Part shown: positions 14,599-45,066 of the stretch, piece after piece | Layout of the letters: each line of letters begins with the position of its first letter | How positions within the stretch are numbered: position 1 is the stretch's first letter | NCBI GenBank assembly: GCA_003164925.1 | Contig: PLRV01000036.1 | Coordinates: 1-64,000, forward strand | Direction: 5' to 3' | Origin: Caulobacteraceae bacterium | GTDB taxonomy: Bacteria; Pseudomonadota; Alphaproteobacteria; Caulobacterales; Caulobacteraceae | DNA length: 64,000 nucleotides | The notes under the pieces: generated by a model | Seen by the model: the letters and a program-made list of their open reading frames with translations, nothing else | What the model was told of the DNA's origin: nothing | Database searches by the model: none | Program-made: the position numbers and the translations under genes

Positions 14599-14841
14599 TA
14601 AATTGACTCACTAGATTCAACTGATTTTGGCAAGCGAATCTTGGTCGACAATCGCCGTCGTTTTTTGGTCGCGTCGCAGGGTGTGGTGTAGTTGGCCGGC
14701 AGTAGCGGACGCTCGCGAAGCGCGGGCCCGAGGGTTGCATAACGCGCTCGCCCCGCGCCAACGCCAAGCCGCCATGCGGCCTTGTGAAAGCCATGACCCT
14801 CTGCTAGGTCACGCAGCCGCAGCCGCCCTGAAAGTGAGTTG

Positions 14842-15657: not shown

Positions 15658-15666
15658 GCTGACATC

Positions 15667-16431: not shown

Positions 16432-16557
16432 GCGGCAAAGTCGCAGCAAACGCTAGGGTTGTGGCGCGGTCAAAAAGAGGTTCACCGCAAGCAGAACACC
16501 GTCTATCAGGGCGGTGAGGGGCGCAACGGATGCTCCCGGCGACGCGGGGTTTGATCG

Positions 16558-17430
16558 GTGAAGGGCATTCTGCTGGCGGGCGGTAGCGGTACGCGTCTTC
16601 ATCCCCTGACCGGCGCGCTGTCGAAGCAGATGCTGCCCGTGTACGACAAGCCCATGCTGTACTACCCGCTGTCCGCCCTGATGCTGGCGGGCCTGCGGGA
16701 TATTCTGATCATCTCAACCCCGGCGCACACGCCGATCCTGGAGTCGATGCTCGGCGACGGGGGCCAGTGGGGCCTGCGCCTGAGCTACGCCGTGCAGCCC
16801 AAGCCCGAGGGCATCGCCCAGGCCTTTCTGATCGCGGCGGAGTTCCTGGACGGCGAGGGCAGTTGCCTAGTGCTGGGCGACAACATCTTCTATGGCCACG
16901 GCCTGGAGGATCTGCTGCGCCGCGCCGCGGGCCGCCAAAGCGGAGCGACGGTGTTCGGCTATCAGGTCGCCGATCCCGAACGCTATGGCGTGATCGAGAT
17001 GGATCGCGAGGGCCGCGCTTTGTCGCTTGAGGAGAAGCCGACGTCGCCCCGGTCGAACATCGCCGTGACCGGGCTCTATTTCTACGACTCACAGGTGGTT
17101 GACATCGCGCGAAACCTGAAGCCATCGGCGCGGGGCGAGTTGGAGATCACCGACGTAAATCGCCGTTACATGGACCAGGGCGCGTTGATCGTGGAGAAGA
17201 TGGGACGCGGCTACGCCTGGCTCGACACCGGCACGCCGGATTCCCTGCTGCAGGCCGCGCAGTTCGTGCAAACGATCGAGCATCGGCAAGGACTGAAGAT
17301 CGCCTGTCCCGAGGAGATCGGCTATCGCAATGGCTGGATCAGCGCGCGCGATCTCGCCGCGCAGGTCGAGCGGACTCCGAACTCGGAATATTGCCGATAC
17401 CTGACACGCCTGCTGAGCGAAACGATCTGA
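16558..17430 (+). CDS. rmlA: Glucose-1-phosphate thymidylyltransferase RmlA
   Basis: RmlA makes dTDP-glucose from dTTP and glucose-1-phosphate, the first step of dTDP-L-rhamnose and related deoxysugar synthesis. The 290-residue protein opens [20 protein letters not shown], the nucleotidyltransferase signature with the pyrophosphorylase Gly-rich loop, then [29 protein letters not shown] and [10 protein letters not shown]. Length and motifs fit the full family. The start is GTG 16558. An apparent rmlB relic and a convergent rmlC follow immediately, so this was once a fuller rml group; rmlB and rmlD must be supplied elsewhere if dTDP-rhamnose is made. Confidence 0.95.
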
Positions 17431-17438
17431 TCGGGCGT

Positions 17439-17525
17439 CATGGACTTGACCACAGAAGGGCCGCCGCCGAGAGCGTCGGCCGGACGAAGACCGTGCTCGT
17501 TGCCGGCGGGGGCCGGCTTTATCGG
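17439..17525 (+). pseudogene. Apparent 5' relic of rmlB / NAD-sugar epimerase
   Basis: Just after rmlA, one frame reads TVLVAGG and the neighbouring frame continues AGFIG, so the two combine to VLVAGGAGFIG, the Rossmann fingerprint at the N terminus of RmlB-type dehydratases. One extra G in the run near 17505-17509 breaks the frame, and a stop follows right after FIG. The position between rmlA and rmlC is where rmlB often sits. Only about 30 nt carry recognisable similarity, so this is suggestive rather than proven. Confidence 0.5.
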
Positions 17526-18083
17526 CTAAAGGCTGAAAATCTTTGGCAGGTGCTTGAGCGGCGGGGCCTTGGCGTCCTTGTCCGAGACCAGCGGCTCGGC
17601 GCCGTTCAGCGGCCATTGGATGCCCAGATCCGGATCGGTAGGGGAAACCCCGCCGTCATGCGCGCGCGAATAGTAGGCTGTGACCTTGTAGAGGAACTCG
17701 ACATCGTCGGTCAGGGTGCAGAAGCCGTGCAGGAAGCCCGGCGGAATCCACAACTGACGCCAATTGTCCTCGCTCAGCTCCGTGGTGATGTGGCGGCCGA
17801 AGGTGGGCGATCCGTGGCGGATATCCACGGCCACATCGAACACCGCGCCGCGCGTGACCCGCACTAGCTTACCCTGGGCGAAAGGCGGCGCCTGGTAGTG
17901 CAGGCCGCGGATCACCCCGCGCCGGGTCGAGCGGGAGTGATTGTCCTGGACGAAGACGATAGGGCCGACGGCCGCGTCGAACGTGTCCTGACGGAAGGTC
18001 TCCGAGAAAAAGCCGCGGGCGTCGCCATGGCGGGCCGGCGTGAACAACAGCGGACCTTGGATATCGAAGGTGTCGACCTGCAT
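17526..18083 (-). CDS. rmlC: dTDP-4-dehydrorhamnose 3,5-epimerase RmlC
   Basis: A cupin-fold epimerase acting on dTDP-4-keto-6-deoxyglucose in the dTDP-L-rhamnose pathway. Key stretches are TPARHGDARGFFSETFR, FVQDNHSRSTRRGVIRGLHYQ (with the catalytic His in LHYQ), FDVAVDIRHGSPTFG, WIPPGFLHGFCTL and TAYYSRAHDGG. ATG 18083 gives a 185-residue protein matching the family length; longer upstream frames are unconserved. It is transcribed convergently to rmlA and lies 13 nt downstream of the PseB-type gene on the same strand, so those two are probably co-transcribed. Confidence 0.95.
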   Translation of the reverse strand: MQVDTFDIQGPLLFTPARHGDARGFFSETFRQDTFDAAVGPIVFVQDNHSRSTRRGVIRGLHYQAPPFAQGKLVRVTRGAVFDVAVDIRHGSPTFGRHITTELSEDNWRQLWIPPGFLHGFCTLTDDVEFLYKVTAYYSRAHDGGVSPTDPDLGIQWPLNGAEPLVSDKDAKAPPLKHLPKIFSL

Positions 18084-18096
18084 CGGGGCTCCCGCC

Positions 18097-19158
18097 TCAA
18101 CCCTTGAGGGCTGAGGCCAGTAGCAGTTGCAAGCCGCGCGCGTCCAGGCCTTCGGGGTTGCGGTCCGAGGCGTAGGAGAAGCCCTCCGGCGCCGCCCGGC
18201 CGCCGTGATCCAGATAGTGGCGCCGCCGCGCCACATAGGCATCGGGCAGGATCACATAGCGATCGTCCAGTTCCACGGTGGAGCGGGCGTCGTCCTCGGG
18301 CACCATAATCTCATGCAGCTTCTCGCCCGGACGGATGCCCACCACCTTATGCGGCAGATGCGGCGCGATGGCGGTGGCCAGCTCGGTGGTCTTCATCGAC
18401 GGAATCTTCGGGACGAAGATCTCGCAGCCCTGCATCAGCTCCAGGCTGGACAGGACGAAGTTCACCCCCTGCTCCAGGGTGATCCAGAAGCGCGTCATGC
18501 GCTCGTCCGTGATGGGCAGGGACGTCGCGCCTTCGGCCGCCAGCTTCTGGAAGTAGGGCGCCACCGATCCGCGCGATCCCACCACATTGCCGTAGCGCAC
18601 CACGCAAAACCGCGTGCCCGCGTCCCCGGCCATGGCCTCGGCCGCGCAGAAGATCTTGTCCGAAGCCAGCTTGGAGGCGCCGTAGAGGTTGATCGGATTG
18701 GCCGCCTTGTCGGTGGACAGGGCCACGACCTTCTTCACCCGTTGGGCGATGGCCGCATTGACCACGTTCTCGGCGCCCATGACGTTGGTTTTGATGCACT
18801 CGAAGGGATTGTACTCGGCGACGGTCACATGCTTGAGCGCCGCGGCGTGGATCACATAGTCCACCCCCCGCATGGCCGTCTCCAGTCGCGCTTGGTCGCG
18901 CACATCGCCTATGAAGTAGCGCATGAACGGGTAGTGTTCTGTCCCGAACACCTGGGCCATCTCGTATTGCTTGAGCTCGTCGCGGCTGTAGATGATCAGC
19001 TTCTTGGGCGTGAACTGGCGGCAGACCATCTCGACCATGGCCCGGCCGAACGAGCCGGTGCCCCCCGTGATCAACACGGTCTTGCCATCGAGATTCGCCA
19101 TCGGCGAGCGGAAGTCGCGCATGGGAATGGCGGCGGGCAGCGGCAGAGCGGCCGACAT
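18097..19158 (-). CDS. pseB: UDP-GlcNAc 4,6-dehydratase, PseB/FlaA1-type
   Basis: A 353-residue short-chain dehydrogenase-like enzyme. It has the Rossmann motif TVLITGGTGSFG, then FIGDVRD, HAAALKHVTVAEYNPFE and ALSTDKAANPINLYGASK (the Thr/Asp/Lys and Tyr catalytic region of extended SDRs). The family converts UDP-GlcNAc to UDP-4-keto-6-deoxy sugars and initiates pseudaminic acid or bacillosamine-like paths. ATG 19158 is taken as start, but ATGs at residues 13 and 20 are possible, and the enzyme fold starts at about residue 21. No pseC, pseH, pseG or pseI is adjacent. The divergent DegT aminotransferase at 19423 could act on its product. The exact sugar product is inferred. Confidence 0.85.
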   Translation of the reverse strand: MSAALPLPAAIPMRDFRSPMANLDGKTVLITGGTGSFGRAMVEMVCRQFTPKKLIIYSRDELKQYEMAQVFGTEHYPFMRYFIGDVRDQARLETAMRGVDYVIHAAALKHVTVAEYNPFECIKTNVMGAENVVNAAIAQRVKKVVALSTDKAANPINLYGASKLASDKIFCAAEAMAGDAGTRFCVVRYGNVVGSRGSVAPYFQKLAAEGATSLPITDERMTRFWITLEQGVNFVLSSLELMQGCEIFVPKIPSMKTTELATAIAPHLPHKVVGIRPGEKLHEIMVPEDDARSTVELDDRYVILPDAYVARRRHYLDHGGRAAPEGFSYASDRNPEGLDARGLQLLLASALKG

Positions 19159-19174
19159 GGCGATCCTCGAATCC

Positions 19175-19280
19175 CAGAGCCTGATGGCTTCATCTTGAAG
19201 CCTGAATCAGGCCCTGAATATTGGCTTCCAGAGCACGATTCAGCGTTCAGGCGATTCGCCTAAAGCCATCGTGCTCTAGA
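19175..19280 (-). repeat. Family A intergenic palindromic repeat, copy 1
   Basis: A roughly 105-bp element in inverted orientation relative to the copy at 49777. It contains a 10-bp inverted repeat (AGAGCACGAT at 19230-19239 and ATCGTGCTCT at 19268-19277) around an inner AGGCGA-T-TCGCCT hairpin, plus several GANTC sites. It lies in the divergent region between pseB and the aminotransferase gene. The 19281-19422 remainder holds a TTAA-N7-CTAA sequence and no gene. Confidence 0.7.
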
Positions 19281-30734: not shown

Positions 30735-31055
30735 CGTTTAGGCTCCGGCCAACGACCGGTCAGCCCGCTGAAATGAAAATGCCCGGAGGGATGGGAGGCA
30801 AGAGTTCTCCTGTGCTTTTCATCCCGATGATCAATCCGTGCGCATTATCCCGCAAATGCGAGAATTTTGTGGGTCGGGTGATGGTTGATCTTTTTTGGGG
30901 GGCCGCGCCAGGTTTGTATGGATTGGAGTGCGCGGTTCATTTGGATGGAGTTTGCCGAGTATGGCGGTTAGTTGCTCCGCCCCGCATTTTCGCAGGCCCT
31001 GGCCGAAGAGCGCCGCGGCCATAATCCGATCCGTCCCGGCTTGCGGAGCGGCGTG
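30735..31055. other. Divergent intergenic region, no gene seen
   Basis: About 320 bp between the GT9 gene (leftward) and the GT4 gene (rightward). An in-frame ATG at 30972 could extend the GT4 protein by 28 residues, but they look unconserved. It presumably carries both promoters; I see no convincing -35/-10 pair or operator. Confidence 0.5.
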
Positions 31056-32282
31056 ATGGCCCGCACCACGGCGTCAGGCAGCCGATTACTGCACCTCATA
31101 GGCTCGATCGACCCGGCGCAGGGCGGCCCGGTCGAGGCCTTGACCCAGCTTTACCGGGTTTATCTGCCACAGGGCGTGGACATAGAGGTGGCGACGCTCG
31201 ATCAACCGGATGCGCCTTTTCTCAAGAGCTATCCTTTCAAGGTTCACGCCCTTGGGCGCGCCGGCGCCACTGAACAATGGGCGACGACCAAACTGCCGTG
31301 GGTCCGGTATCGCTATTCACCCCTTTATGCGCGCTGGCTGAGGCAGAACCTGCACCGGTTTTCCGCGGTCATCGTGCATGGCCTTTGGACCTACACCACC
31401 TCGGGCGCCGTCGGTCCCATGCTCGAGGCCAAGACGCCGTACCTTGTCTTTACCCACGGCGCGCTGGATCCCTGGTTTCGGCGGGCCTATCCCCTCAAGC
31501 ATGCGATCAAGCAACTGGTCTGGTGGATAGGCGATGGGCGGCTGCTCAATCACGCCCGGCGCGTACTGTTCACGACCGAGGAGGAGAGGCTCCTCTCCCG
31601 CGACGCCTTTTTCCCCTACGCTGTCCACGAAAGGGTTGTGGGCTATGGCATCGCCGATCCCCCGCCGCCCTCGCCCGCGCAGGCGGAGGCCTTCCGGCAA
31701 ATCACGCCCGAACTCGCCGGCCGCCGTTATCTGCTCTATCTCAGCCGCATTCATCCCAAAAAGGGCTGCGATCTTTTGATCCAGGCCTTCGCCGACATCG
31801 CCCGCCGCGATCCGGGCCTCGATCTGGTCATGGCCGGACCCGACGGGACAGGCTGGAGCGGCGCGTTGAAGGCGATCGCTGCGCGCGAGGGGATTGGCGA
31901 CCGCATTCACTGGCCCGGCTCCTTGCACGGAGACGCCAAATGGGGCGCCTATAGGGGGTGCGAAGCCTTTGTCCTGCCCTCGCATCAGGAGAACTTCGGC
32001 ATCGTCGTGGCCGAGGCCCTGGCCTGCGGCAAGCCGGTCCTCGTCAGCAACAAGGTCAACATCTGGCGTGAGGTGGAGGCGGACGGCGCCGGCCTAGTGG
32101 AGGACGACACCTTGGCCGGAACCCGGGCGCTGCTGAACGCCTGGGCGGATCAGGGCGAGGAGGCGCAGCGCGCGCGGGGATTGGCCGCCCGGGCCTGTTT
32201 TGTTGAGCGGTTCGACATCCGCAAGACGTCCGAGGACATACTCAGCGTGATCAGCGAGGTCCTGCCCGATGTCGATCCTTGA
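31056..32282 (+). CDS. Glycosyltransferase family 4
   Basis: A GT-B fold retaining glycosyltransferase of about 408 residues. It has LLHLIGSIDPAQGGPVEALTQL at the N-terminal acceptor side, VFTHGALDPWFRR, LLYLSRIHPKKGCDLLIQAF, and PSHQENFGIVVAEALACGKPVL with the E-x7-E motif contacting the nucleotide sugar. ATG 31056 has GCGGAG upstream. The acetyltransferase gene overlaps its 3' end by 14 nt, so they are coupled. By context it works in the same glycan as the downstream WcaF-like and WaaE-like enzymes; the linkage is unknown. Confidence 0.92.
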   Translation: MARTTASGSRLLHLIGSIDPAQGGPVEALTQLYRVYLPQGVDIEVATLDQPDAPFLKSYPFKVHALGRAGATEQWATTKLPWVRYRYSPLYARWLRQNLHRFSAVIVHGLWTYTTSGAVGPMLEAKTPYLVFTHGALDPWFRRAYPLKHAIKQLVWWIGDGRLLNHARRVLFTTEEERLLSRDAFFPYAVHERVVGYGIADPPPPSPAQAEAFRQITPELAGRRYLLYLSRIHPKKGCDLLIQAFADIARRDPGLDLVMAGPDGTGWSGALKAIAAREGIGDRIHWPGSLHGDAKWGAYRGCEAFVLPSHQENFGIVVAEALACGKPVLVSNKVNIWREVEADGAGLVEDDTLAGTRALLNAWADQGEEAQRARGLAARACFVERFDIRKTSEDILSVISEVLPDVDP

Positions 32283-32826
32283 AGCCCGCGCCGCCTACGA
32301 CGGCGGACCGAGCTTTTCCCTCGGGCATCGGCTCTACCGCGCCATTTGGGCGATCGCCTGGGGCCTGCTGGCGTCATGGACCCCGCCGCCCTTGCACCGA
32401 TGGCGTATTTTCCTCCTGAACCTCTTCGGCGCCAGGGTGCATCCGAGCTGCCATATCTATGGCAGCACGCGGGTCTGGCGCCCCAAGCTGCTGCACATGG
32501 AGGCGGGCTCGACCCTCGGGCCGCGCGTGAACTGCTATTGCATGGCCCAGATCACCCTGAAGGCGCGGGCGATCGTCTCTCAGGACGCCACGCTGTGCGC
32601 GGGAACCCACGATGTGGCCGATCCCCATTTTCAACTGCAGGCCCGTCCCATCACGATCGGCCAGGGGGCCTGGGTGGCGGCCGAGGCCTTCGTCGGTCCG
32701 GGCGTAAGCGTGGGCGCCGGCGCGGTCCTGGGGGCCAGGGCCGTGGCGTTCAAGGATCTCGCGGCCTGGACGATCTACGTCGGCAACCCGTGTGCGGCGC
32801 TCAAGCCGCGCACCATCCGCACCTGA
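32269..32826 (+). CDS. Putative colanic-acid-type acetyltransferase (WcaF-like, left-handed beta-helix)
   Basis: A 185-residue hexapeptide-repeat O-acetyltransferase. SLGHRLYRAIWAIAWGLLASW is the typical WcaF-like N-terminal amphipathic segment. GARVHPSCHIYGSTRVWRP begins the beta-helix, and ATLCAGTHDVADPHFQL has the catalytic His in AGTHD. ITIGQGAWVAAEAFVGPGVSV and GARAVAFKDLA follow. It would decorate a sugar of the polymer with acetyl from acetyl-CoA. It sits between GT4 and GT2 genes with start/stop overlap, indicating one operon. Confidence 0.9.
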   Translation: MSILEARAAYDGGPSFSLGHRLYRAIWAIAWGLLASWTPPPLHRWRIFLLNLFGARVHPSCHIYGSTRVWRPKLLHMEAGSTLGPRVNCYCMAQITLKARAIVSQDATLCAGTHDVADPHFQLQARPITIGQGAWVAAEAFVGPGVSVGAGAVLGARAVAFKDLAAWTIYVGNPCAALKPRTIRT

Positions 32827-32842
32827 GCTTGAGGGGCGCGCC

Positions 32843-33625
32843 GTGACGCAATCTCCTCGCCTGGCCGCGGTCATCCTGACCAAGAACGAGGAGCGTAACC
32901 TGGCGACCTGCCTGGCCGCGGTCACGCAGGGCGTTGCTGTGGTGGTGGTCGACTCCGGGAGTACGGACGCAACCCTCGACATCGCCCGGGCTCACGGCTG
33001 CGAAATCCTGACGCGGGATTGGACCGGTTTTGCAGACCAGCGCAATTTTGCGTTGCGCGCGCTTGCGAGCCGGTTCGACTGGCTGGTTTTCATCGATGCT
33101 GACGAGACTTTTCCGCCGGCCATATGGGATTGGGCCGAGGCCAACCTGGATGAGCCTAAGGCCGCCGACGTAGTTTATTTGTCCCAGCGCATCCACATAG
33201 GCGGGCGCATGCTCCGGCGCGCGCCGCACTATCCCATATACCACCCCCGCATCGTCCGGCTTCGCCCCGACGTGTTCGTCAATAATCGAAGCGGCCACGG
33301 GGAAACCGTGCGCGAAGGTTTATCCCTGCGTTATCTGGACATTCCCTATCACCACCACATCATCGGCCGGGACCTGGGCTCCTGGCTGCACAAACATGTG
33401 GGCCTGGCGCTTATGGAGGCCCGGGCGCAGCCGTCCACCGGAATGCTCACGGCGCGCGCGCGCCTCAACGCCATGATGCCGACGGGTCCCCTGCGCCCGC
33501 CCGCCCGGTTCTTTTTTCACTACGTCGTGTGCGGCGGATGGCGTGATGGAAGGCCAGGCTTCATCTATTCGGCGCTCTACGCCTGGTATGAATTGACGAA
33601 GTGGCTCGCCGCCCTGCAGGTCTAG
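32843..33625 (+). CDS. Glycosyltransferase family 2, WaaE/KdtX-like
   Basis: A 260-residue GT2 enzyme. It has LAAVILTKNEERNLATCLAAV, VVVVDSGSTDATLDIA, TRDWTGFADQRNFAL and WLVFIDADETFPP, the signature set of WaaE/KdtX LPS-core beta-glucosyltransferases and related enzymes. The C-terminal FFFHYVVCGGWRDGRPGF is also conserved in that group. The start is GTG 32843, with GAGG upstream and the conserved VILTKNE at residue 9; an ATG-free upstream extension is not supported. Likely role: core or repeat-unit glucosylation. Confidence 0.9.
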   Translation: MTQSPRLAAVILTKNEERNLATCLAAVTQGVAVVVVDSGSTDATLDIARAHGCEILTRDWTGFADQRNFALRALASRFDWLVFIDADETFPPAIWDWAEANLDEPKAADVVYLSQRIHIGGRMLRRAPHYPIYHPRIVRLRPDVFVNNRSGHGETVREGLSLRYLDIPYHHHIIGRDLGSWLHKHVGLALMEARAQPSTGMLTARARLNAMMPTGPLRPPARFFFHYVVCGGWRDGRPGFIYSALYAWYELTKWLAALQV

Positions 33626-33664
33626 CGGGCGGCGGGGCGAGATCGGCATGTTCGGGGCTAGGAT

Positions 33665-34111
33665 ATGATGGTGCGGCTGCAAGGGCTACTGTCTTCACAG
33701 CTGGCGTTGTTCCTGCTGGTCGGCGGGACGGCGGCCGGGGTCCAGTGGTTGGCGCGTTTTCCGCTTAACCGGGTGATGCCCTTCGCCGCCGCGGTCGTGG
33801 TGGCTTACGCGATCGGCATGTTCATCGCCTTCGAGCTGAACCGCCGCTTCGTGTTCCCTGAAGGGGGCGACGCCAGGCACAGGCAATTTGTCCGCTTCTT
33901 CCTGGTCAACATCTTGTCCTTCGCCACGGTGTGGGCTGTGTCTGTCGTGCTGGGGTCCGTGATCCTGCCGCGGTTCATGAGCCTGCAGGCGGCCGAGGCT
34001 GTGGGGCACGGCCTGGGGGTGCTGTCGCCGGCCCTGGCCAGCTACTTCCTGCACAAACACTTCACTTTCCGGGCGACGCCGGCGGCCGCGAGCGCGGGAA
34101 CAGGGCCATGA
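33665..34111 (+). CDS. GtrA-family small membrane protein
   Basis: A 148-residue integral membrane protein with four predicted helices: LALFLLVGGTAAGVQWLA, AAAVVVAYAIGMFIAFELNRRFVF, FFLVNILSFATVWAVSVVLGS and ALASYFLHKHFTF. The NRRFVF and HKHFTF ends are GtrA hallmarks. GtrA proteins are implicated in flipping or anchoring polyprenyl-phosphate sugars; the mycobacterial member Rv3789 belongs to the arabinan pathway. The ATGA overlap with the HAD-UbiA gene fits a role with the DprE-type genes that follow. A start at 33665 or 33668 is equivalent. Confidence 0.9.
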   Translation: MMVRLQGLLSSQLALFLLVGGTAAGVQWLARFPLNRVMPFAAAVVVAYAIGMFIAFELNRRFVFPEGGDARHRQFVRFFLVNILSFATVWAVSVVLGSVILPRFMSLQAAEAVGHGLGVLSPALASYFLHKHFTFRATPAAASAGTGP

Positions 34112-35562
34112 CCGGACCGTCCCGAGGCGCGTCGCCCTTGATCGTGGACCTGGACTTCACCCTGCTGCGCACCGACAGTCTGTGGGAGCAGTTCACCGCC
34201 TTGTTCTTTCGCCGCCCGTGGGACGCTCTGTGCGCTCTGTGCGCCCTGGCGACGCTGGGCCGCGGCCGGGCGCAGTTCAAGGCGCGGATCGTCGAGCTGG
34301 TCGACCTGGACCCGGCCGCCCTGCCTTACCGCCAGGAGCTGGTCGACTACCTCAAGGCGCAAAAGGCGCAGGGTCGCCGCGTGCACCTGGCCACGGCCGC
34401 CGATCGCCGCACCGCCGAGGCGGTGGCTGCCCACGTGGGCCTGTTCGATACGGTGGAAGCCAGCGACGGCGCCCACAATCTCAAGGGCCAGGGCAAGGCC
34501 GAGCGTCTGGCTGAGCGGTTTCCCTCCGGTTTCGTGTACGCTGGCGACCATGCCGCCGATCTCAAGGTGTGGGCTGGCGCCGAGGCCATCGTCCTGGCCG
34601 GCGCCAGCCCAAGCGTGGCGCGCCGAGCTCGGGCCCTGGGCAAGCCGATCGAGGCGGAATTCAAGGGCCCCCGGGCCGGCTTGAAGGTATGGCGCAAGGC
34701 CCTGCGGCTGCACCAATGGGCCAAGAACATCCTGGTGTTCGTGCCCCTGCTCCTGGCCCATCGCTACCGAGACCTCCACGCCGACGCCATGGTCGCGGCC
34801 GCATTTGTGGCCATGGGGCTGGTCGCCTCGGCCACCTATGTCATCAACGACCTGGCCGATCTGGCCGCCGACCGGCGCCACGCCGCCAAGCGGCGGCGGC
34901 CGTTCGCCGCGGGCGACCTCAGCATCGCCCAGGGCGCGGGCGCGGTGGCTTGCCTGTTCGCGGCCGGCTTCGGCCTGGCGGCGGCGCTGTCGCCCGCGCT
35001 GCTGCTCGGGCTGGCCGCCTACACCGTGCTGACGCTGAGCTACACCTTCCGGCTCAAGCGCCTGGCGCTGATCGATGTGGCCACCCTGGGCCTGCTCTAC
35101 ACCACCCGCATCGTGATCGGCGGTTTGGTGGCCCAGGTGCCGCTGTCGGTGTGGCTGTTGACCTTCTCGATGTTCTTTTTCTTCTCGATCTCCCTGGCCA
35201 AGCGCTACGCCGAGATCTTCGCCATGGCGGCCAAGGCGCGCGTCGGGGCTATCGCCGGGCGCGGCTATCGGGCCGACGACGGACCGGCCGTCCTGGCGCT
35301 GGGCGTCGGGGCCACGGTCGCCTCGGTGCTGATCGTGGTCATCTACCTGACCGACGAGGCTTTTCCGTCGAAGATCTATCATCATCCCAACTGGCTGTGG
35401 GCGGCCCCGTTCCTGTTGATGCTGTGGTCCAGCCGGGTCTGGCTGCTGGCGGGCCGCGGCGAGATGGACGAGGACCCTGTGGCCTTCGCCCTGCGCGATC
35501 GGTTCAGTTGGGCCCTGGCGGTCCCGCTGCTGCTGGCGTTTGCGCGCGCCGTCATTCGATGA
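34108..35562 (+). CDS. HAD phosphatase - UbiA prenyltransferase fusion (polyprenyl-P-phosphoribose synthase-like)
   Basis: A 484-residue fusion. Residues 10-175 are a HAD-type hydrolase with nucleophile motif VDLDFTLL (D14, D16), ATAADRRTAE and YAGDHAADLKVW. Residues about 190-484 are a UbiA-family membrane prenyltransferase with NDLADLAADRRH (N247, D248, D251, D255) and LIDVATLGLLYTTRIVIGG (D323). In mycobacteria the UbiA protein Rv3806c joins phosphoribosyl pyrophosphate to decaprenyl phosphate, and a separate phosphatase then dephosphorylates the product. Here both activities appear fused. Start and stop codons overlap both neighbours (ATGA), so the four genes are translationally coupled. 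Substrate specificity is inferred from context. Confidence 0.88.
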   Translation: MTGPSRGASPLIVDLDFTLLRTDSLWEQFTALFFRRPWDALCALCALATLGRGRAQFKARIVELVDLDPAALPYRQELVDYLKAQKAQGRRVHLATAADRRTAEAVAAHVGLFDTVEASDGAHNLKGQGKAERLAERFPSGFVYAGDHAADLKVWAGAEAIVLAGASPSVARRARALGKPIEAEFKGPRAGLKVWRKALRLHQWAKNILVFVPLLLAHRYRDLHADAMVAAAFVAMGLVASATYVINDLADLAADRRHAAKRRRPFAAGDLSIAQGAGAVACLFAAGFGLAAALSPALLLGLAAYTVLTLSYTFRLKRLALIDVATLGLLYTTRIVIGGLVAQVPLSVWLLTFSMFFFFSISLAKRYAEIFAMAAKARVGAIAGRGYRADDGPAVLALGVGATVASVLIVVIYLTDEAFPSKIYHHPNWLWAAPFLLMLWSSRVWLLAGRGEMDEDPVAFALRDRFSWALAVPLLLAFARAVIR

Positions 35563-36893
35563 GCGCGCCGTTCGTCTCTCAGTCCTACCGTTCCTGGGGC
35601 GGCGTGACCCGCACGGCGCGCCCGGTCGCGCATCCGAAGTGGCGCCAGGAGCTGGCCGGCCTTCTCGGAGGGGCCAGAGACCGGGGCGACGTGCTCGGGG
35701 TGGGCCTGGGGCGCTCCTATGGCGACAGTGGGCTGGATGCGGGCGGGCGCCTGATCTGCGGCCGGGGCTTGGACCGGTTCATGGCCTTCGACCCGCAAAC
35801 CGGAGTCCTTCGCGCCGAGGCCGGCGCCAGCTTGGACGACATCCTGCAGCTGGTGGCGCCGCGCGGGTGGTTCTTGCCCACCACGCCAGGGACGCGCTTT
35901 GTCACCCTGGGCGGGGCGGTGGCCAACGACGTGCATGGCAAGAACCACCACCGGGCCGGCTCGTTCGGCCTGCATGTGCGCCGGCTTGGCCTGATCCGTT
36001 CGGACCGGGGGGCCCTGGAGCTGTCCAGAGAGCAGGAGCCCCAGCTGTTCTTCGCCACTCTGGGCGGGTTGGGCCTGACGGGCTTCATCGCGTGGGTGGA
36101 GCTGCAGTTGGCGCCCACGCCGAGCAGCTTTCTGGATCAGGAGGCCATCGGTTTCTCCGGCTTGGACGGTTATTTCGACCTGCTGGCCGACAGCCACGAC
36201 CGATTCGAGCATGTGGCGGCCTGGATCGATTGCTCGGCCACAGGCGGCGGCCTCGGCCGCGGCGTCATGTTCCGCGCCAACTGGTCGGCCGAGGGCGGCC
36301 TTGTTACCCATGAGCGACGCCTGAAGCTGACCCTGCCGCTGGAGGCTCCGGGCTGGGTGCTGAACCGATGGTCGGTGGGGGCGTTCAACAGCCTTTATTA
36401 CAGCGTGCATGGCTCGCGCCACGGCTTGCGGCGCATACCCTACGCCGCCGGCTTCTATCCGCTGGACGCCATCGGCGGTTGGAATCGGCTGTACGGGCGG
36501 GCCGGATTTTTCCAGCATCAGAGCGTCATTCCCGAGGGGGTCGCGCGGGAAGCCGTGCGCAAAATGCTCGAGCGAATCTCCGCCTCGGGCCAGGGCTCCT
36601 TCCTGGCGGTGCTCAAGAGCTTCGGCGGTAAGGATTCCGGCGGCCTGGTCAGCTTTCCCAGACCCGGCGCCTCCCTGGCGCTGGACTTCCCCAATCGCGG
36701 GGCCGAGACCCTGGATCTGCTCGACCGGCTCGACGCCATCGTGGCGGACGCCGGCGGCCGTATCTACCCGGCCAAGGACGGACGCATGTCCGCCGCCATG
36801 TTCCAGCAGGGCTATCCGCGCTGGCGCGCGCTGGAAGCCCTGCGCGATCCATCCTTTCAATCCGCCTTCTGGCGCCGGGTCACCCAATCATGA
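35559..36893 (+). CDS. dprE1: DprE1-like FAD-dependent oxidase (decaprenylphosphoryl-ribose 2'-oxidase family)
   Basis: A 444-residue FAD enzyme expected to oxidise C2' of a polyprenyl-phosphoryl ribose. GVGLGRSYGDSGLD and TTPGTRFVTLGGAVANDVHGKN followed by HHRAGSFG form the PP-loop/VAO-type FAD site and closely resemble actinobacterial DprE1. The C-terminal YPAKDGRMS retains the active-site Lys (K406, like K418 of M. tuberculosis). The Cys387 equivalent, in the segment GASLALDFP, is Ala374. It starts inside the stop of the UbiA gene and overlaps the next gene by 4 nt. Gram-negative homologues include Azorhizobium NoeO-type proteins. It may be called an FAD-binding oxidoreductase elsewhere. 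Confidence 0.88.
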   Translation: MSAPFVSQSYRSWGGVTRTARPVAHPKWRQELAGLLGGARDRGDVLGVGLGRSYGDSGLDAGGRLICGRGLDRFMAFDPQTGVLRAEAGASLDDILQLVAPRGWFLPTTPGTRFVTLGGAVANDVHGKNHHRAGSFGLHVRRLGLIRSDRGALELSREQEPQLFFATLGGLGLTGFIAWVELQLAPTPSSFLDQEAIGFSGLDGYFDLLADSHDRFEHVAAWIDCSATGGGLGRGVMFRANWSAEGGLVTHERRLKLTLPLEAPGWVLNRWSVGAFNSLYYSVHGSRHGLRRIPYAAGFYPLDAIGGWNRLYGRAGFFQHQSVIPEGVAREAVRKMLERISASGQGSFLAVLKSFGGKDSGGLVSFPRPGASLALDFPNRGAETLDLLDRLDAIVADAGGRIYPAKDGRMSAAMFQQGYPRWRALEALRDPSFQSAFWRRVTQS

Positions 36894-37657
36894 AAAGCAG
36901 CAACGCGGCCCCCATGGGCGTGATCATTCTCGGCGCGAGCTCCGCCATAGCCGAGGCGGTCGCTCGTAGGCTGGCGACCAAGGGCGTGCGGCTGGGCCTC
37001 GTGGCGCGCGACGCCGTCAAGCTCGCCGCCATAGGGGACGATCTGCGCATACGCGGCGCGCCGCAGATCGCGGTGCGGGCCTGGGATCTGGCGGCCGGTC
37101 CCGCTCCGGGCGCCTTGGCCGAACTGGCCCAGGAGATGGGCGGCGCCGATACGGTGCTGATCGCCTACGGCCTCCTGGGCGACCAGGCCCTAGCCGAGGC
37201 CGACGGGGCAGCGGCGCTGGAGCTGCTCCAGGTCAATTTCACCAGCGCCGTGTCGTGGGCGCTGGAGTCCAGCCGCGTGCTGGCGACGATATGCGGCGCG
37301 CACGGGCTGGTGGTGGGCCTGGGCAGCGTGGCTGGGGACAGGGGCCGCAAATCCAACTTCGTCTATGGCGCGGCCAAGGGCGGATTGGCCCTGGCGTTGC
37401 AGGGCATGGCTCACCGCTCCGCCCTGACTGGCGCCCCTCGCGGGATGGTGGTCAAGCTCGGCTTCGTGGATACGCCGATGACGGCGGGCTTCAAGAAAGG
37501 CGGTCCGCTTTGGTCTACGCCAGATCAGGCGGCGGCGGCGATCGTGCAGGCGATGGCCCGGCCCAAGGCCATCGTCTATGCGCCATGGTTCTGGCGCTGG
37601 ATCGCCTTGATCATCCGCCTTCTGCCCGAGGCGGTGTTCAATCGCGCGGACCTCTGA
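36890..37657 (+). CDS. dprE2: DprE2-like SDR (decaprenylphosphoryl-2-keto-ribose reductase family)
   Basis: A 255-residue short-chain dehydrogenase. It has the NAD(P) motif GVIILGASSAIAEAVARRL, the LQVNFTSA strand and the catalytic Ser-Tyr-Lys set at S146 (GLGSVAGDRGR), Y159 and K163 (VYGAAKGGL). The SVAGDRGRxSNxxYGxxK pattern is characteristic of DprE2. It would reduce the keto intermediate made by the DprE1-like enzyme to the arabino epimer, completing polyprenyl-phosphate arabinofuranose. ATGA-type coupling with the upstream gene supports joint action. The C-terminal hydrophobic WFWRWIALIIRLLPEAVF may anchor it at the membrane. Confidence 0.88.
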   Translation: MKSSNAAPMGVIILGASSAIAEAVARRLATKGVRLGLVARDAVKLAAIGDDLRIRGAPQIAVRAWDLAAGPAPGALAELAQEMGGADTVLIAYGLLGDQALAEADGAAALELLQVNFTSAVSWALESSRVLATICGAHGLVVGLGSVAGDRGRKSNFVYGAAKGGLALALQGMAHRSALTGAPRGMVVKLGFVDTPMTAGFKKGGPLWSTPDQAAAAIVQAMARPKAIVYAPWFWRWIALIIRLLPEAVFNRADL

Positions 37658-37684
37658 GGCGAATTACGCAAATGTCCGCAAACC

Positions 37685-37751
37685 CCATCAGGCCCTGGCT
37701 TCAAATCTGTGGAGCCTGATCAGGCTTCGAGATGAAGCCATCAGATTCTAG
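37685..37751 (+). repeat. Family A intergenic repeat, partial copy 2
   Basis: CCTGATCAGGCTTCGAGATG (37716-37735) followed by AAGCCATCAGA matches the 3' half of the family A element seen at 19175 and 49777, with a few substitutions. It sits between the convergent dprE2-like gene and the gene at 37748 and could form a GCCTGATCAGGC hairpin. Confidence 0.6.
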
Positions 37752-38332
37752 GAATCGAGGCCGGGCAGGGGCAATACTCCGAATAGAGCCGCTGTGATCC
37801 GCCCGTTAGGGTCCGTGACCGTGGGGGTCTGCTGCCTCAACATAAATTTGTGGTCCGGGTCGCTCTTGAGGATGGTGATCTCTTCGATGGCGTCTTGCTT
37901 CACCCGGTCCGGCGCACCCGTCCAGTTGTTCAAGATGAACATGACGCGCCAGATCGCGCGCGGGCCCGCGTAGGGCGTGATGGAATAGCTGATGTCTAAG
38001 GCGTTCTGGCCCTCGGCCGTGAGATGGCCGTGCAGCAGCCGGTCGGCGTAGGCCAGCCGCAGCCAGCCGCTCACCTCGCCAGGCTGCGATCGCACAAGGT
38101 TGAGGGCGGCGGCTCTTTGCCGGGCGCCGTCGCGACCCTGAGGGTCCTGTTGTTCGATCAGACGTTCCTGCTGCATGGGATTGGGCAGCGGCCAGGTCGC
38201 CCCGCAGCATCCCGCGGGCGCGACGAAACTTTCGGCGAAGAGCCAAATTCCATAAGCGGCCCCGAGGGCGCCAATTGCGCCCAGGACCCAGATATTGCCG
38301 CGTGCCGGCGCCATTTTTTGAGGCGTTCCCAT
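37748..38332 (-). CDS. Membrane-anchored hypothetical protein near the exopolysaccharide locus
   Basis: A 194-residue protein. A single N-terminal hydrophobic segment (IWVLGAIGALGAAYGIWLF) suggests a periplasmic domain anchored to the inner membrane. The soluble part contains LVRSQPGEVSGWLRLAYADR, which resembles one tetratricopeptide-like helical pair, and ends with QTPTVTDPNGRITAALFGVL. I do not recognise a family. It is divergent from the OPX export gene 110 bp away, so it may share a regulatory region with the exopolysaccharide operon. A periplasmic accessory role is only a guess. Confidence 0.6.
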   Translation of the reverse strand: MGTPQKMAPARGNIWVLGAIGALGAAYGIWLFAESFVAPAGCCGATWPLPNPMQQERLIEQQDPQGRDGARQRAAALNLVRSQPGEVSGWLRLAYADRLLHGHLTAEGQNALDISYSITPYAGPRAIWRVMFILNNWTGAPDRVKQDAIEEITILKSDPDHKFMLRQQTPTVTDPNGRITAALFGVLPLPGLDS

Positions 38333-38442: not shown

Positions 38443-39033
38443 ATGACGCGCCACATTGTGTTCCGTGCGCTGATTTTGGCCTTTTTGGGACTGTTTTTCG
38501 CGGGCGCAGTCCTGGCCGCCGCCCCTTCGCCCGTCTCAGAAGGATCGCCAGCGGCGACTGAGGCGGACGCTCAATTCGAATATCATCTTGGGGCGGGCGA
38601 CAAGCTGCGCATCGTGGTGTTCGGCGAGGACTCCCTTTCGGGAGAATTCTTCGTGTCCGGCGGCGGCAAGGTGTCCCTTCCGTTGATCGGCGACGTCGAC
38701 GCAACCGGCCTGACCATTCCGCAACTGCAAAAGGCGATCGAACAGAAGCTGGCGGATGGCTATCTAAAGCAGCCACAAGTCAGCGCCGAGGTGGAGAACT
38801 ATCGGCCCTTCTACATTCTCGGCGAGGTGATGAAGCCGGGCGAATACCCCTACACCAACGGCCTTACGGTGCTGAACGCCGTCGCCACCGCCGAGGGCTT
38901 CACCTACCGCGCGGACACACGCAAGGTGTACATCAAGCGCGCCACCAGCCTTGGCGAGACCCAAATGCCGTTGACGACGGCCACGCCGGTGCTGCCCGGC
39001 GACACTATCAGGATCGGCGAACGGTTCTTCTAG
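38443..39033 (+). CDS. Outer-membrane polysaccharide export protein (OPX, Wza/GumB-like)
   Basis: A 196-residue secreted protein. The signal peptide FRALILAFLGLFFAGAVLAA is followed by the Poly_export domain (YHLGAGDKLRIVVFGEDSLS, then VSLPLIGDVDATGLT) and one SLBB domain (YILGEVMKPGEYPYTNGLTV). There is no lipobox and no C-terminal amphipathic helix, so it is a short OPX that probably relies on a separate outer-membrane barrel, for which the BBP2 protein at 40018 is a candidate. It works with the Wzc-like protein at 41357 to move a Wzy-made polymer to the cell surface. RBS AGGAGG precedes ATG 38443. Confidence 0.92.
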   Translation: MTRHIVFRALILAFLGLFFAGAVLAAAPSPVSEGSPAATEADAQFEYHLGAGDKLRIVVFGEDSLSGEFFVSGGGKVSLPLIGDVDATGLTIPQLQKAIEQKLADGYLKQPQVSAEVENYRPFYILGEVMKPGEYPYTNGLTVLNAVATAEGFTYRADTRKVYIKRATSLGETQMPLTTATPVLPGDTIRIGERFF

Positions 39034-41310: not shown

Positions 41311-41356
41311 CCCGAGCTTACCCGTCGGTGGCTGGCCCAGACTAGGTTTGATCTCA

Positions 41357-43615
41357 ATGAACATCCAAAGCCTGGATAGAAGGCGCGACCCGGTGGAGCA
41401 GCCCCAGGGCGGAGATCTCGATCTCCTCCAGCTGATCTCCACCTTTCGTCGGCGGTTGCGGCTGTATGCGGCTGTTGTCGCCGCGGTTGTCGTTGGCGCG
41501 GTGGTGTTCAGCTACGAACAGACTCCTCGCTATACGGCCACGTCCTACGTGATGATCGATACGCGCAAGCATGACGTGTCCAGCGTCAATGCCGTGCTGT
41601 CGGGACTGCCGCCCGACTCCAGCGCGGTCGACACCGAGGTGGAGGTCCTGAAGTCGCGCTCCCTGGCGACCCGCGTCGCCCAAGCGCTCAAACTGGACCA
41701 GGATCCCGAGTTCAATCCCAGGCTCGCCAAGCGGCCTCTGATTGGCGAAATTCTGGGCGCGCCGAGTTCCGCGATTCACGCCCTGTTCAAGGCCACGGTT
41801 CCGCAGCAGCAGTCTCTGATCGCCAATACCGCCGCCGTCGATCTCGAGAACCGGCGCGTCCTGGACAGCGTGGTGGATTCGCTGTTGAGGCGGCTGACGA
41901 TTCGTCGATCGGGCCTCACCTATGTGATCGGCATCAACTTCGAGTCCGAAAATCCGACCAAGGCGGCGCTGATCGCTAACACCTTCGCCGACGACTACCT
42001 GCTGCAGCAGCTCGAAGCCAAGTTCGACGCGACCAAGCAAGCCAGCGTCTGGCTGCAGGAGCGGCTTGGCGATCTGCGCAACCAGGTCGAAACGGCGGAG
42101 GAGGCGGTCGCCCAGTATCGCGCCGCTAACGGGCTGATGAGCGCCGTGGGTTCGAACCTGACCGAACAGGAAGTGTCGAACCTGAACCAGCAACTCGCCG
42201 TTGCTCAGGCCGACGCCGCCGAGCAAGAGGCCAAGGTTCGCACCGCCAAGCAGCAGATGGCGAATGGCTCCAACGGCGAAGACGTCGCCGCGGCGCTCGA
42301 TTCCGAGGTGGTGAAGGGCCTCCGCGCCCAGCGCGCCGATATCAGCGGCAAGCTGGCGGATCTGCAAACCAAGTACGGATCGCGCCACCCCGAGGTGCAG
42401 CGCATCCAACGCCAACTGGCCGATATCGACAACCAGATTCAGCTCGAGATCAACCGCAACGTTTCCAACCTGGACGCCCAGGCCCAGGTCGCCCGCCAGC
42501 GCATGGCGTCGATCCAGGGCAGCCTCGCCCAGGCCCGCGGCACGCTCGCGGGCAACAACGTGGCTACGGTCAAACTCAACGAGCTTGAGCGCAACGCCGA
42601 ATCCGTACGCACCCTCTATGAGAGCTTCCTCGGCCGGTTCAAGGAAACCACGAGCGAGCAGGGCATGGAGGAATCCGACGCCCAGGTCGTATCCCGCGCC
42701 AAGATCCCGACGTCGCCGAGCTATCCCAAGAAAGGCATGAATGCCGTCCTGGGTCTGCTGTTCGGCATGCTGGTCGGAACCGGCGTGATCTTCCTGGCGG
42801 AGGCTCTGGACAATGGCATTGCCACGTCCGAGGACGTCGAGCGGTTCTTCAACGTCGCCAGCCTCGGTTCTGTGCCGCTACTGTCATCGACTGGAACGAC
42901 GCGCGAGACGGGCCTGTCGCCGGCGGAATCCATCATTGAAAAGCCCCTGTCGGCGTTCGCGGAAGCCTTCCGTAACTTGCGGACATCGATCATCTATTCC
43001 CGCGTCGACAAGCCGATCCGCATTATCGCGATCACCTCCGCCCTACCGGGGGAAGGGAAGACCACCACTGCGTTCTGTCTGGGCCGCACCATGGCCATGT
43101 CGGGCAGCCGCACCGTGGTGGTGGACTGCGACGTTCGTCGCCGAAATATCAACCGCCTCCTGGGCGAAGAGCCGACAGTGGGTCTGATGGAAGTCCTAAC
43201 CGGGGCCGCCACCTTGGACGAGGCCCTCGTCGCCGATCGCGCGTCCGGCGCCTGGTTCCTGCCTCTGGCCCGCAGCGCCTTCACGCCGAAGGATCTGTTC
43301 GGTGGGGCCGCCATGAACAATCTGCTGATCGAGTTGCAGAAGCGCTTCGAGTTCGTCATTCTGGATACCGCGCCGGTCATTCCCGTGGCCGATACCCGCT
43401 CCTTGGCCCCTAAGGCGGACGTGGTCGTGGTGCTCGCCCGGTGGCGCAGTACGCCGCGCAAGGCGGTGCAGGCGGCCTTCGACATGTTGAACTCGGTCGG
43501 AGCCGACATCGCCGGCATCGCCATGACCCAGGTGGATATGCGTCAACAGGCCAAGTACGGCTACGGCGACGCGGGCTATTATTATCGCGCTTACCGCAAG
43601 TACTATGCACAATGA
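41357..43615 (+). CDS. Polysaccharide co-polymerase / bacterial tyrosine kinase (Wzc-like)
   Basis: A 752-residue chain-length regulator fused to a BY-kinase. Domains: Wzz region with TM1 (about 36-54), a long periplasmic coiled coil (about 220-400), a GNVR-like region, and TM2 (461-481). The cytoplasmic kinase has Walker A SALPGEGKTT (561-570), Walker A' VVDCDVRR (588-595) and Walker B FVILDTAPV. The C-terminal YGYGDAGYYYRAYRKYYAQ is the tyrosine cluster that is autophosphorylated in this family. It pairs with the OPX protein and the Wzy-like polymerase to control polymer length and export. ATG 41357 is preferred over TTG 41348. Its stop overlaps the next start (ATGA). Confidence 0.93.
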   Translation: MNIQSLDRRRDPVEQPQGGDLDLLQLISTFRRRLRLYAAVVAAVVVGAVVFSYEQTPRYTATSYVMIDTRKHDVSSVNAVLSGLPPDSSAVDTEVEVLKSRSLATRVAQALKLDQDPEFNPRLAKRPLIGEILGAPSSAIHALFKATVPQQQSLIANTAAVDLENRRVLDSVVDSLLRRLTIRRSGLTYVIGINFESENPTKAALIANTFADDYLLQQLEAKFDATKQASVWLQERLGDLRNQVETAEEAVAQYRAANGLMSAVGSNLTEQEVSNLNQQLAVAQADAAEQEAKVRTAKQQMANGSNGEDVAAALDSEVVKGLRAQRADISGKLADLQTKYGSRHPEVQRIQRQLADIDNQIQLEINRNVSNLDAQAQVARQRMASIQGSLAQARGTLAGNNVATVKLNELERNAESVRTLYESFLGRFKETTSEQGMEESDAQVVSRAKIPTSPSYPKKGMNAVLGLLFGMLVGTGVIFLAEALDNGIATSEDVERFFNVASLGSVPLLSSTGTTRETGLSPAESIIEKPLSAFAEAFRNLRTSIIYSRVDKPIRIIAITSALPGEGKTTTAFCLGRTMAMSGSRTVVVDCDVRRRNINRLLGEEPTVGLMEVLTGAATLDEALVADRASGAWFLPLARSAFTPKDLFGGAAMNNLLIELQKRFEFVILDTAPVIPVADTRSLAPKADVVVVLARWRSTPRKAVQAAFDMLNSVGADIAGIAMTQVDMRQQAKYGYGDAGYYYRAYRKYYAQ

Positions 43616-45066
43616 GGCTGGAGCCTGAGGGCTCCGCCCTGAAGTCAGAATCACGCTCTACATATTTAAATCCTGAGCACGAGCCGGCGTTTCGGCGATC
43701 CCACCCAGACCAATCATGGTCCAGGCTCAGCCGGTTAATGCCCTCCGCGGACGATGCGGCAGTCTTCAGCTTTGTCATTCTGCTCTACGTCGAGCACTTG
43801 ATCTTCGGGGCGAACAGGGGCGACCTTTCCCTGTTTTTCGCCATTCTGCACCTGCTCATTCTGCTTGCCGCCCTGGCGACGCGGGCCAGCCGTCGGGCCC
43901 TGGACGCCGCGCCGCTGGTTGTTCCCGGAGGGCTCTTTGCTCTTGTTCTGGCCGGCGCCTTCTTCACCCTGCTGCCGCTGGGCGGGCGGATCGGCCACCC
44001 CCTATGGAGCTATGTATCCGCGTCCGGCGGCAGCGTGTCCCTGGATCCGGCGGCTACGCGGGTTGAGATCGTCAAGCTGTTGGGGCTCGCGGCGGTGTTC
44101 GCCGTGGGCATCGTCTTCGGGGCCAAGCGCGAACGGGCCGAGGCCATGATCCGGGCTTTGTCCTATGTCGGCGGAGCGTTCGCCGTCTGGGCTTTCCTCA
44201 GTTGGTCAAACGATCCCGACACCATATTCGGCACAGCTCGCTTCTACGGCAGCGGTCGGCTGGCGGCCGCCTTCCTGAGCGCAAACAGCGCAGCCACCTT
44301 GTTCGCCTGCCAGAGCGTGCTGCAATTGTGCCTGGCGATCCGCGCCGTCCAGCGCGCGCCCAAACCGTTCTTTTCAAAGCGGGCCTGGATGGAAATGAAG
44401 GGCCTGCCCGCGGCGTTGATTTTGCTGTTCATTAACGTCAGTTGCCTGCTCCTTACCCAGTCACGCGCCGGGGTGACGGCCGCCTTCGCCGCCATGGCCC
44501 TGGCCATCGCCCTGTTCGCCCTGGTGCGCACCGATCGCCGCAGCGCCGTGGGCGGTGTCATGGGCGTGGGTGGATTGCTGCTCTGCGCCGCCGCAGGCCT
44601 TGTATTGTTGAAAGGCCAATCCCTTCTGGGCCGCATGTCCGACAATCCCCTGATGGACGGGCGGCTGGCCTATTTCGGAGCCTATTGGCGCACGGTGCAA
44701 GCCTCGCCCTGGTGGGGTTATGGCCTCGGGGCGTTCGCTTCGGTCAAATATCAGAGCATCACTGCGCCTACGGCGGTCCTGATGGGCGCCCTAGGCGCCG
44801 CTCACAATGTCTATCTGCAATGGCTTCTGCAAACCGGCGTCATCGGCTTTGTCCCGATGATGGGCTGTCTGGCCGTCATCCTCGCCACGATCCTGAACGG
44901 TTTTCGGCGCCGATCCCGGCAACAGGTGGTGATGATCGTCGCCCTCGCCGTCACGGTCGTTTTTGCCTTCCACGGCATGACCGACTACGCCTTGGAGGAG
45001 CCGTCTCTAGCGGTCTCCTTCGCGGCGTTGCTGGGCTTGGCCTATGGCGTCGCCACCCGGACCTAG
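43612..45066 (+). CDS. O-antigen ligase/polymerase-like membrane protein (Wzy-like)
   Basis: A protein of up to 484 residues with about 10-12 hydrophobic helices and a large periplasmic-type loop. The Wzy_C/O-antigen ligase hallmark appears in LLLTQSRAGVTAAF, and PWWGYGLGAF with HNVYLQWLLQTGVIGF is the conserved ligase/polymerase motif containing the functional His. It probably polymerises lipid-linked repeat units at the periplasmic face under control of the Wzc-like protein. The ATGA overlap at 43612 supports coupling; ATG 43738 (before PSADDAAVF) is an alternative start that drops an unconserved polar leader. Confidence 0.88.
   Translation: MRLEPEGSALKSESRSTYLNPEHEPAFRRSHPDQSWSRLSRLMPSADDAAVFSFVILLYVEHLIFGANRGDLSLFFAILHLLILLAALATRASRRALDAAPLVVPGGLFALVLAGAFFTLLPLGGRIGHPLWSYVSASGGSVSLDPAATRVEIVKLLGLAAVFAVGIVFGAKRERAEAMIRALSYVGGAFAVWAFLSWSNDPDTIFGTARFYGSGRLAAAFLSANSAATLFACQSVLQLCLAIRAVQRAPKPFFSKRAWMEMKGLPAALILLFINVSCLLLTQSRAGVTAAFAAMALAIALFALVRTDRRSAVGGVMGVGGLLLCAAAGLVLLKGQSLLGRMSDNPLMDGRLAYFGAYWRTVQASPWWGYGLGAFASVKYQSITAPTAVLMGALGAAHNVYLQWLLQTGVIGFVPMMGCLAVILATILNGFRRRSRQQVVMIVALAVTVVFAFHGMTDYALEEPSLAVSFAALLGLAYGVATRT

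Follow-up and report, generated by a model that had tools for sequence, protein, structure and literature searches.

Known pentofuranose donor pathways

Lipid-linked pentofuranose pathways known from several bacteria were compared with a four-gene cassette on the + strand, at 33665-37657, of a 64,000-nucleotide stretch of DNA from a Caulobacteraceae bacterium. That whole stretch, called the window below, covers positions 1-64,000 of the 82,216-base contig PLRV01000036.1, and the genome assembly it belongs to is 3.44 Mb. Comparison loci, genomes and contigs carry the prefixes L, G and C.

One of the closest described systems is the three-component pentofuranose system of Citrobacter youngae O1/O2, made up of ORF15 (PPPRS-PRP), the MATE protein ORF14 and the GT136 enzyme ORF12 (PMC11127046). 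ORF15 is a polyprenyl-phosphoribose synthase with both steps demonstrated biochemically: ORF15 membranes of the O1 strain converted phosphoribosyl pyrophosphate (PRPP) to farnesyl-phosphate-ribose, and the D18A variant gave the 5-phosphate and a small amount of dephosphorylated product (PMC11127046). The window resembles this system in having an N-terminal HAD phosphatase-UbiA fusion with all of the tested residues kept, and in placing it within a surface-glycan cluster. It differs in having DprE1 and DprE2 homologues in place of the SDR epimerase ORF13 of O2; in having a GtrA protein where Citrobacter has a MATE protein; and in belonging to a genome with no match to the ORF12-like protein of a Citrobacter locus, L063.

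The mycobacterial decaprenyl-phosphate-arabinose pathway (Rv3806c, Rv3807c, DprE1, DprE2 and Rv3789) has the same reaction order as the cassette and homologous UbiA, DprE1 and DprE2 proteins. Unlike the cassette it uses a decaprenyl lipid, has no alanine at the C387 position of DprE1, and has a separate phosphatase, Rv3807c, which lies outside the HAD family (PMC11127046). The original prediction that the fusion combines two mycobacterial steps holds for the steps; the enzymes differ, since Rv3807c and the HAD phosphatases are unrelated (PMC11127046).

Two Gram-negative systems are also comparable. The D-arabinofuranose pathway for type IV pilin in Pseudomonas aeruginosa is likewise a PPPRS-based donor route, but its enzyme is described as having no PRP domain and its acceptor as pilin (PMC11127046). 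In Azorhizobium caulinodans, noeC, noeH and noeO were assigned to a D-arabinose precursor by similarity to mycobacteria (PMC2443382); noeCHOP is likened to the cassette by description only, and it differs in its Nod factor acceptor and its location in a nod operon (PMC2443382).

The route itself is already published, as the fused enzyme and the use of DprE1 and DprE2 for arabinofuranose glycans (PMC11127046) as the mycobacterial precedent, and as the Azorhizobium noe genes (PMC2443382). DprE1 and DprE2 homologues are described as accompanying the machinery where the glycan has arabinofuranose (PMC11127046). What the window adds is a compact four-gene version of the route (flippase, fused synthase-phosphatase, oxidase and reductase) in an exopolysaccharide cluster; among the matches listed in a search of titles and abstracts in the open-licence literature, there was no report of a GtrA/PRP-UbiA/DprE1/DprE2 arrangement in such a cluster.

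The cassette and its proposed pathway

The four genes very probably form a cassette for synthesis of a polyprenyl-phosphate-D-arabinofuranose donor, a confidence that applies to the donor and not to its acceptor. All four open reading frames (ORFs) are open and intact. The first, gtrA (33665..34111, +), encodes a 148-aa GtrA/DPMS transmembrane protein (PF04138, 7.2e-17) proposed to flip a lipid-linked sugar. The second (34108..35562, +) encodes a 484-aa fusion of a predicted HAD phosphoribose phosphatase and a UbiA-fold polyprenyl-phosphate phosphoribosyltransferase (PF12710, 1e-8; PF01040, 1.2e-19). The third (35559..36893, +) encodes a 444-aa DprE1-like FAD oxidase (FAD_binding_4, 1.2e-13), predicted to oxidise position 2 of polyprenyl-phosphate-ribofuranose, and the fourth (36890..37657, +) a 255-aa DprE2-like SDR (adh_short, 2e-20), predicted to reduce the 2-keto sugar to arabinofuranose. 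The original prediction had described four genes joined by 4-nt ATGA overlaps and had named the same four protein types; the ORF and overlap check found the overlaps at 34108-34111, 35559-35562 and 36890-36893, and Pfam, NCBIfam and PDB matches agree with the protein types.

The fusion protein scored 590 bits with NF006088 ('UbiA family prenyltransferase', cut-off 351), and 131 bits with the NCBIfam model for decaprenyl-phosphate phosphoribosyltransferase, under its cut-off of 207. The UbiA and CyoE models gave 34 and 27 bits. Its best solved match is decaprenyl-phosphate phosphoribosyltransferase (PDB 8j8j, 1.7e-24). Against a Citrobacter youngae homologue (L061), 199 of 479 aligned positions are identical (42%). 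The ORF15 residue numbers published in PMC11127046 coincide with the numbering of the L061 protein, and because of this the L061 protein is regarded as ORF15 itself or something very close to it. In the alignment to L061, each of the seven positions that were mutated in ORF15 is kept: D14 aligns with the nucleophile D18, and N247/D248/D251/D255 of loop II and R366/E369 of loop IV are identical and carry the same numbers. In a tree built from 23 selected rows and the two further UbiA-family proteins of the genome, the fusion separates from these paralogues. A first tree grouped it with L059 and L090 (support 94), a grouping that the 23-row tree leaves unresolved, and in the UbiA trees it sits with Citrobacter ORF15 and alphaproteobacterial relatives. 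The bit scores and the split from the paralogues both place it outside the quinone and haem clades.

The oxidase carries the DprE1 signature GKNHHRAGSFG, and the SDR has S146, Y159 and K163 exactly where the original prediction put them. The best solved match of the oxidase is mycobacterial DprE1 (PDB, 4.8e-70), whereas the solved enzymes other than DprE1 lie far behind, with L-galactono-1,4-lactone dehydrogenase at 4.3e-9 and xylitol oxidase at 1.1e-7. Its NCBIfam match to NF053785 (DprE1) is 325 bits, with the next family at 57 bits. For the SDR, DprE2 is the sole solved match at 1e-20 or better (2.1e-23), so the pair does not fall to sugar-alcohol oxidases and generic SDRs. In an alignment to the solved DprE1 chain, whose numbers we take to agree with those of M. 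tuberculosis DprE1, the important residues H132, K367 and K418 are conserved, corresponding to H126, K353 and K406, and H320 of the oxidase aligns with Y335 of the M. tuberculosis enzyme.

The cassette genes also travel together elsewhere. A DprE1 match at 1e-50 was found in 45 of 385 genomes sampled across the class, the window's own included, and the neighbourhoods of 20 of the 44 non-self matches were inspected; these were hand-picked as better-scoring, mostly on longer contigs, and are not a random sample. Within 5 kb of DprE1, they held DprE2 in 20/20 stretches, a UbiA homologue in 18/20 and GtrA in 4/20, with a further GtrA near DprE1 in L043 by Pfam only. This clustering of DprE1, DprE2 and UbiA is more than chance. 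The UbiA homologue is unfused, at ~300 aa, in several of these stretches (L042, L046, L047, L048, L052). A gtrA gene adjoins PRP-UbiA also in L090, L037, L041 and L059, and in L090 it lies directly upstream with the same 4-nt overlap. A pattern scan of species genomes for PRP-UbiA, which picks up close relatives only and whose weaker matches cover the UbiA part only, gave 54 loci from Pseudomonadota, Acidobacteriota, Bacteroidota, Gemmatimonadota, Actinomycetota, Chloroflexota and others. When an ORF length of 430 aa or more is used as a proxy for the HAD-UbiA fusion, and with contig ends cutting some neighbourhoods, 32 of these loci have a long UbiA ORF, accompanied within 5 kb by DprE1 in 16 and by DprE2 in 16; the 22 with a shorter UbiA (unfused or cut) have DprE1 within 5 kb in 5 and DprE2 in 4.

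In the proposed pathway, the fused enzyme would convert PRPP and polyprenyl phosphate to polyprenyl-phosphate-ribofuranose, and the DprE1 and DprE2 homologues would oxidise and then re-reduce C2 and so turn ribofuranose into arabinofuranose. GtrA would move the lipid-linked arabinofuranose to the periplasmic face, and a transferase would then join it to a glycan, for which the polymer of the Wza/Wzc/Wzy cluster around the cassette is the simplest choice. Intact genes, family assignments, kept catalytic residues and a conserved linkage are all seen here. The two steps of ORF15 and the mycobacterial DprE1/DprE2 epimerisation have been demonstrated in homologues, while the product in this organism, the flippase role of GtrA and the acceptor are inferences. 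Of the original prediction of a lipid-linked arabinofuranose donor for a surface glycan or glycoprotein, the donor pathway is well supported by families, residues and linkage, a support that does not extend to the acceptor. By this pathway, a surface glycan of the organism should contain arabinofuranose, and one clear question is which transferase uses the donor.

Several observations weigh against this reading. The oxidase (325 bits) is under the equivalog cut-off of 500 for NF053785, and the SDR, at 148.6 bits, is under the cut-off of 250 for the DprE2 equivalog NF053786; the top NCBIfam model of the SDR is PRK07102, an unnamed SDR family (220 against a cut-off of 267). Because both score under the cut-offs, the two proteins are classed as homologues, with functions that are most likely those of DprE1 and DprE2, and not as equivalog members. 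The positions of N385 and C387 of DprE1 are S372 and A374 in the oxidase. GtrA proteins serve hexose systems too. DprE1 is absent within 5 kb from 16 of the 32 loci with a long UbiA ORF, and neither L059 nor L090, which are closest in PRP-UbiA, has DprE1 or DprE2 nearby. No unassigned GT-C-like ORF of at least 150 aa was found in the window or the 18 kb after it (~82 kb), and the genome has no match to the L063 protein or to GT-C set A1, the GT-C proteins found beside related cassettes, in a search with no positive control. Lastly, a promoter-like match at 33336-33363 (+), inside the glycosyltransferase gene before gtrA and one of 3 in all against 0.9 in shuffles (pattern scan), makes it uncertain how far the transcription unit extends.

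C387 is the benzothiazinone attachment point of DprE1, a tuberculosis drug target, and a homologue with a natural alanine at this position shows how the family spreads beyond mycobacteria.

The surrounding glycan clusters and the acceptor

The genes around the cassette are an exopolysaccharide cluster, judged by their domains. Upstream lie a family 4 glycosyltransferase (30972..32282, +; PF00534, 1.6e-29; best NCBIfam match HpsP, under its cut-off), which is the first gene of the probable transcription unit, a WcaF-like acetyltransferase that overlaps both neighbours (32269..32826, +; PRK10502, 4.8e-46, under its cut-off) and a family 2 glycosyltransferase (32792..33625, +; PF00535, 2.3e-16) that ends 39 nt before gtrA. 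These three genes and the four of the cassette likely form a seven-gene transcription unit, because they share an orientation with overlaps or short gaps. A pattern scan found no terminator-like site at 33085-38130, with a total of 5 sites against 5.7 in shuffles, which is no difference. Downstream are a Wza-type polysaccharide export protein (38443..39033, +; PF02563, 2.4e-22), a Wzc-type chain-length determinant/tyrosine autokinase with Wzz, GNVR and AAA_31 domains (41348..43615, +; TIGR01005, 4.4e-111, under its cut-off) and a Wzy_C-type polymerase/ligase with 9 predicted transmembrane (TM) segments (43441..45066, +; PF04932, 1.2e-17), whose start is uncertain as it overlaps wzc. A beta-barrel protein and, on the opposite strand, a bacterial sugar transferase are also found downstream.

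A sizeable, though tentative, alternative is that the donor is made as described and goes to an acceptor other than the exopolysaccharide, such as an ABC-transporter-type O-polysaccharide with genes at ~1-19 kb, a protein or a pilin. A second glycan cluster does lie upstream, at 1-19263, with ABC2_membrane, ABC ATPase, RgpF-domain multi-glycosyltransferase and GT2 genes, and in Citrobacter the ribofuranose goes onto an O-polysaccharide that is apparently ABC-transporter-dependent (PMC11127046). The position of the cassette speaks for the exopolysaccharide instead: it directly follows the co-oriented GT4, acetyltransferase and GT2 genes and precedes wza, wzc and wzy. No GT-C ties it to either cluster. 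The upstream cluster also holds nucleotidyltransferase and dTDP-sugar isomerase genes, and an ISL3-type transposase lies within it at 7845-9347.

Candidate transferases

The original prediction noted no obvious arabinofuranosyltransferase in the window, which agrees with our search, both there and in the 18 kb that follow on the contig. The multi-TM ORFs listed for this sequence are ABC2_membrane, MFS and Wzy_C proteins, an acetyl-CoA-transporter-like protein, a histidine kinase and the UbiA protein of the cassette itself. The linked GT-C of a complete three-component pentofuranosylation system was not found there, and the cassette was filed as donor-only.

Elsewhere in the genome, PMT_2/PMT searches gave two GT-C genes, on contigs C3 and C21. 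The C3 protein has matches of 60-61% identity in all three same-genus genomes searched (G001-G003, one only 79% complete), none of which has a DprE1 match; the C21 protein matches at 65% identity in G002 and G003, and G001 has it as two partial pieces. Because the C3 gene adjoins a GT2+GtrA gene, it was read as part of a hexose Gtr system. In five loci (L093, L094, L099, L102 and L112), however, PMT_2 proteins similar to the C3 protein (phmmer 1e-13 to 3e-19) lie at most ~4 kb from a UbiA homologue, and in L093 the gene adjoins DprE1 as well. Since similar proteins lie near UbiA homologues in these loci, a PMT_2-type user of the pentofuranose donor is possible, and the genome's two PMT_2 proteins are candidates.

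On contig C52 (L127 9515-11512, -), a 665-aa GT-C-like protein with ~10 TM segments adjoins a GT2 gene; its C-terminal 120 residues are a GtrA domain, and it is apparently a GT-C-like transferase fused to its flippase. The genome has four GtrA matches altogether. None of the ORFs in the 74 fetched cassette loci is homologous to the C52 protein at 1e-3. A GT87 match on contig C5 (45213-45500, L116) was considered as a user and rejected, as it is a fragment with an in-frame stop and probably a remnant; the gene beside it is, by eye, presumably a MazF/PemK-type toxin. In L038 a GT87 gene adjoins the cassette.

A separate observation concerns the L063 protein (12834-14789, -) from Citrobacter, which is multi-TM, 651 aa long and matches DUF7024 at 515-647. 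The C-terminal carbohydrate-binding part of ORF12/GT136 spans 503-652 (PMC11127046). Only its length and layout mark the L063 protein as ORF12-like, and DUF7024 may be this carbohydrate-binding part.

The donor genes might also have been acquired with the transferase lost or never gained, leaving little or no arabinofuranose on the glycan. The absence of a DprE1 match at 1e-30 from all 36 further genomes of the family, the lack of a GT-C candidate on the contig part read and the GT87 fragment would fit such a history, which we consider unlikely: the four genes are intact with kept active sites and tight overlaps, and the genome's two PMT_2 proteins are candidate users. Moreover, the 20-kb stretches around four other cassettes (L043, L044, L048, L049) also lack a linked multi-TM candidate, so an unlinked transferase is plausible. 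It is also unlikely that the user of the donor belongs to none of the recognised GT-C pentofuranosyltransferase families, being for example the cluster's own Wzy_C-type membrane enzyme or a GT-C fold without a family model, such as the C52 protein; this is the less likely because PMT_2-type proteins adjoin related UbiA genes elsewhere. If true, the cluster would point the way to an arabinofuranosyltransferase of a new kind, with an exopolysaccharide as its acceptor.

A further alternative, which we regard as very unlikely, is that a different sugar, or a different position on it, is the target of the oxidase and reductase and that the exported sugar is not arabinofuranose. The scores under both equivalog cut-offs, the changes at N385 and C387 and the additional epimerase and FAD-oxidase genes at related loci would suit it, but the best solved matches of the two proteins are the DprE1/DprE2 pair, and both travel with a phosphoribosyl lipid synthase. 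An ordinary quinone or haem UbiA beside an unrelated sugar-alcohol oxidase and SDR, which the Pfam domains, being only general ones, would allow, can for practical purposes be dismissed, as it is contradicted by the NCBIfam and PDB rankings and by the tree, where the fusion stands apart from both paralogues in the genome.

Distribution and history

Leaving these alternatives, the arabinofuranose donor cassette appears to be patchily distributed. At 1e-30, DprE1 was matched in 2 of 61 genomes, the window's own and the same-order genome G037; by rank, this is 1 of 37 family genomes (its own) and 0 of 3 other genomes of the genus. The PRP-UbiA fusion was matched at 1e-20 in the same two genomes, out of 41. 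In a DprE1 tree of 42 rows, the window groups with Kaistia, Ancylobacter, three Rhodopseudomonas, a Caulobacterales metagenome-assembled genome and a contig filed as Streptomyces (8 rows, support 97), and G037 joins Henriciella, apart from the window. The patchy presence, together with the placement among Rhizobiales and away from G037, suggests that the cassette was horizontally gained. The cassette genes have a G+C of 66-70%, not below the 65% of the window, and therefore composition gives no support to such a gain. The PRP-UbiA and DprE1 halves may differ in history, with support too weak for a claim. The original prediction had seen an actinobacterial-style operon as an oddity here, a view that did not hold: the fusion groups with ORF15 and alphaproteobacteria, DprE1 is present in the 45 class genomes counted above, and the fusion has already been characterised.

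The contig filed as Streptomyces sp. AcH 505 (L067), whose cassette nests beside Rhodopseudomonas in the DprE1 tree, has ORFs with a third-position G+C of ~0.56-0.73, which is low for Streptomyces; it is probably a contaminating contig.

Among the 74 loci fetched by DprE1 or PRP-UbiA, 13 (L036, L037, L041, L042, L060, L062, L064-L067, L083, L084 and L090) have, near the cassette, an extended-SDR epimerase-like gene paired with one for a PRK07233-type FAD oxidoreductase; this pair was not found in the window. GtrA is also present in 12 of the 13, and L090 has the pair without DprE1 or DprE2. The pair may carry out a second lipid-linked sugar modification. In nine acidobacterial loci (L073-L077, L081, L086, L089 and L092), very large proteins with ~10-12 TM segments, mostly of 1040-1194 aa and RND-like by size only, lie at most ~9 kb from PRP-UbiA.

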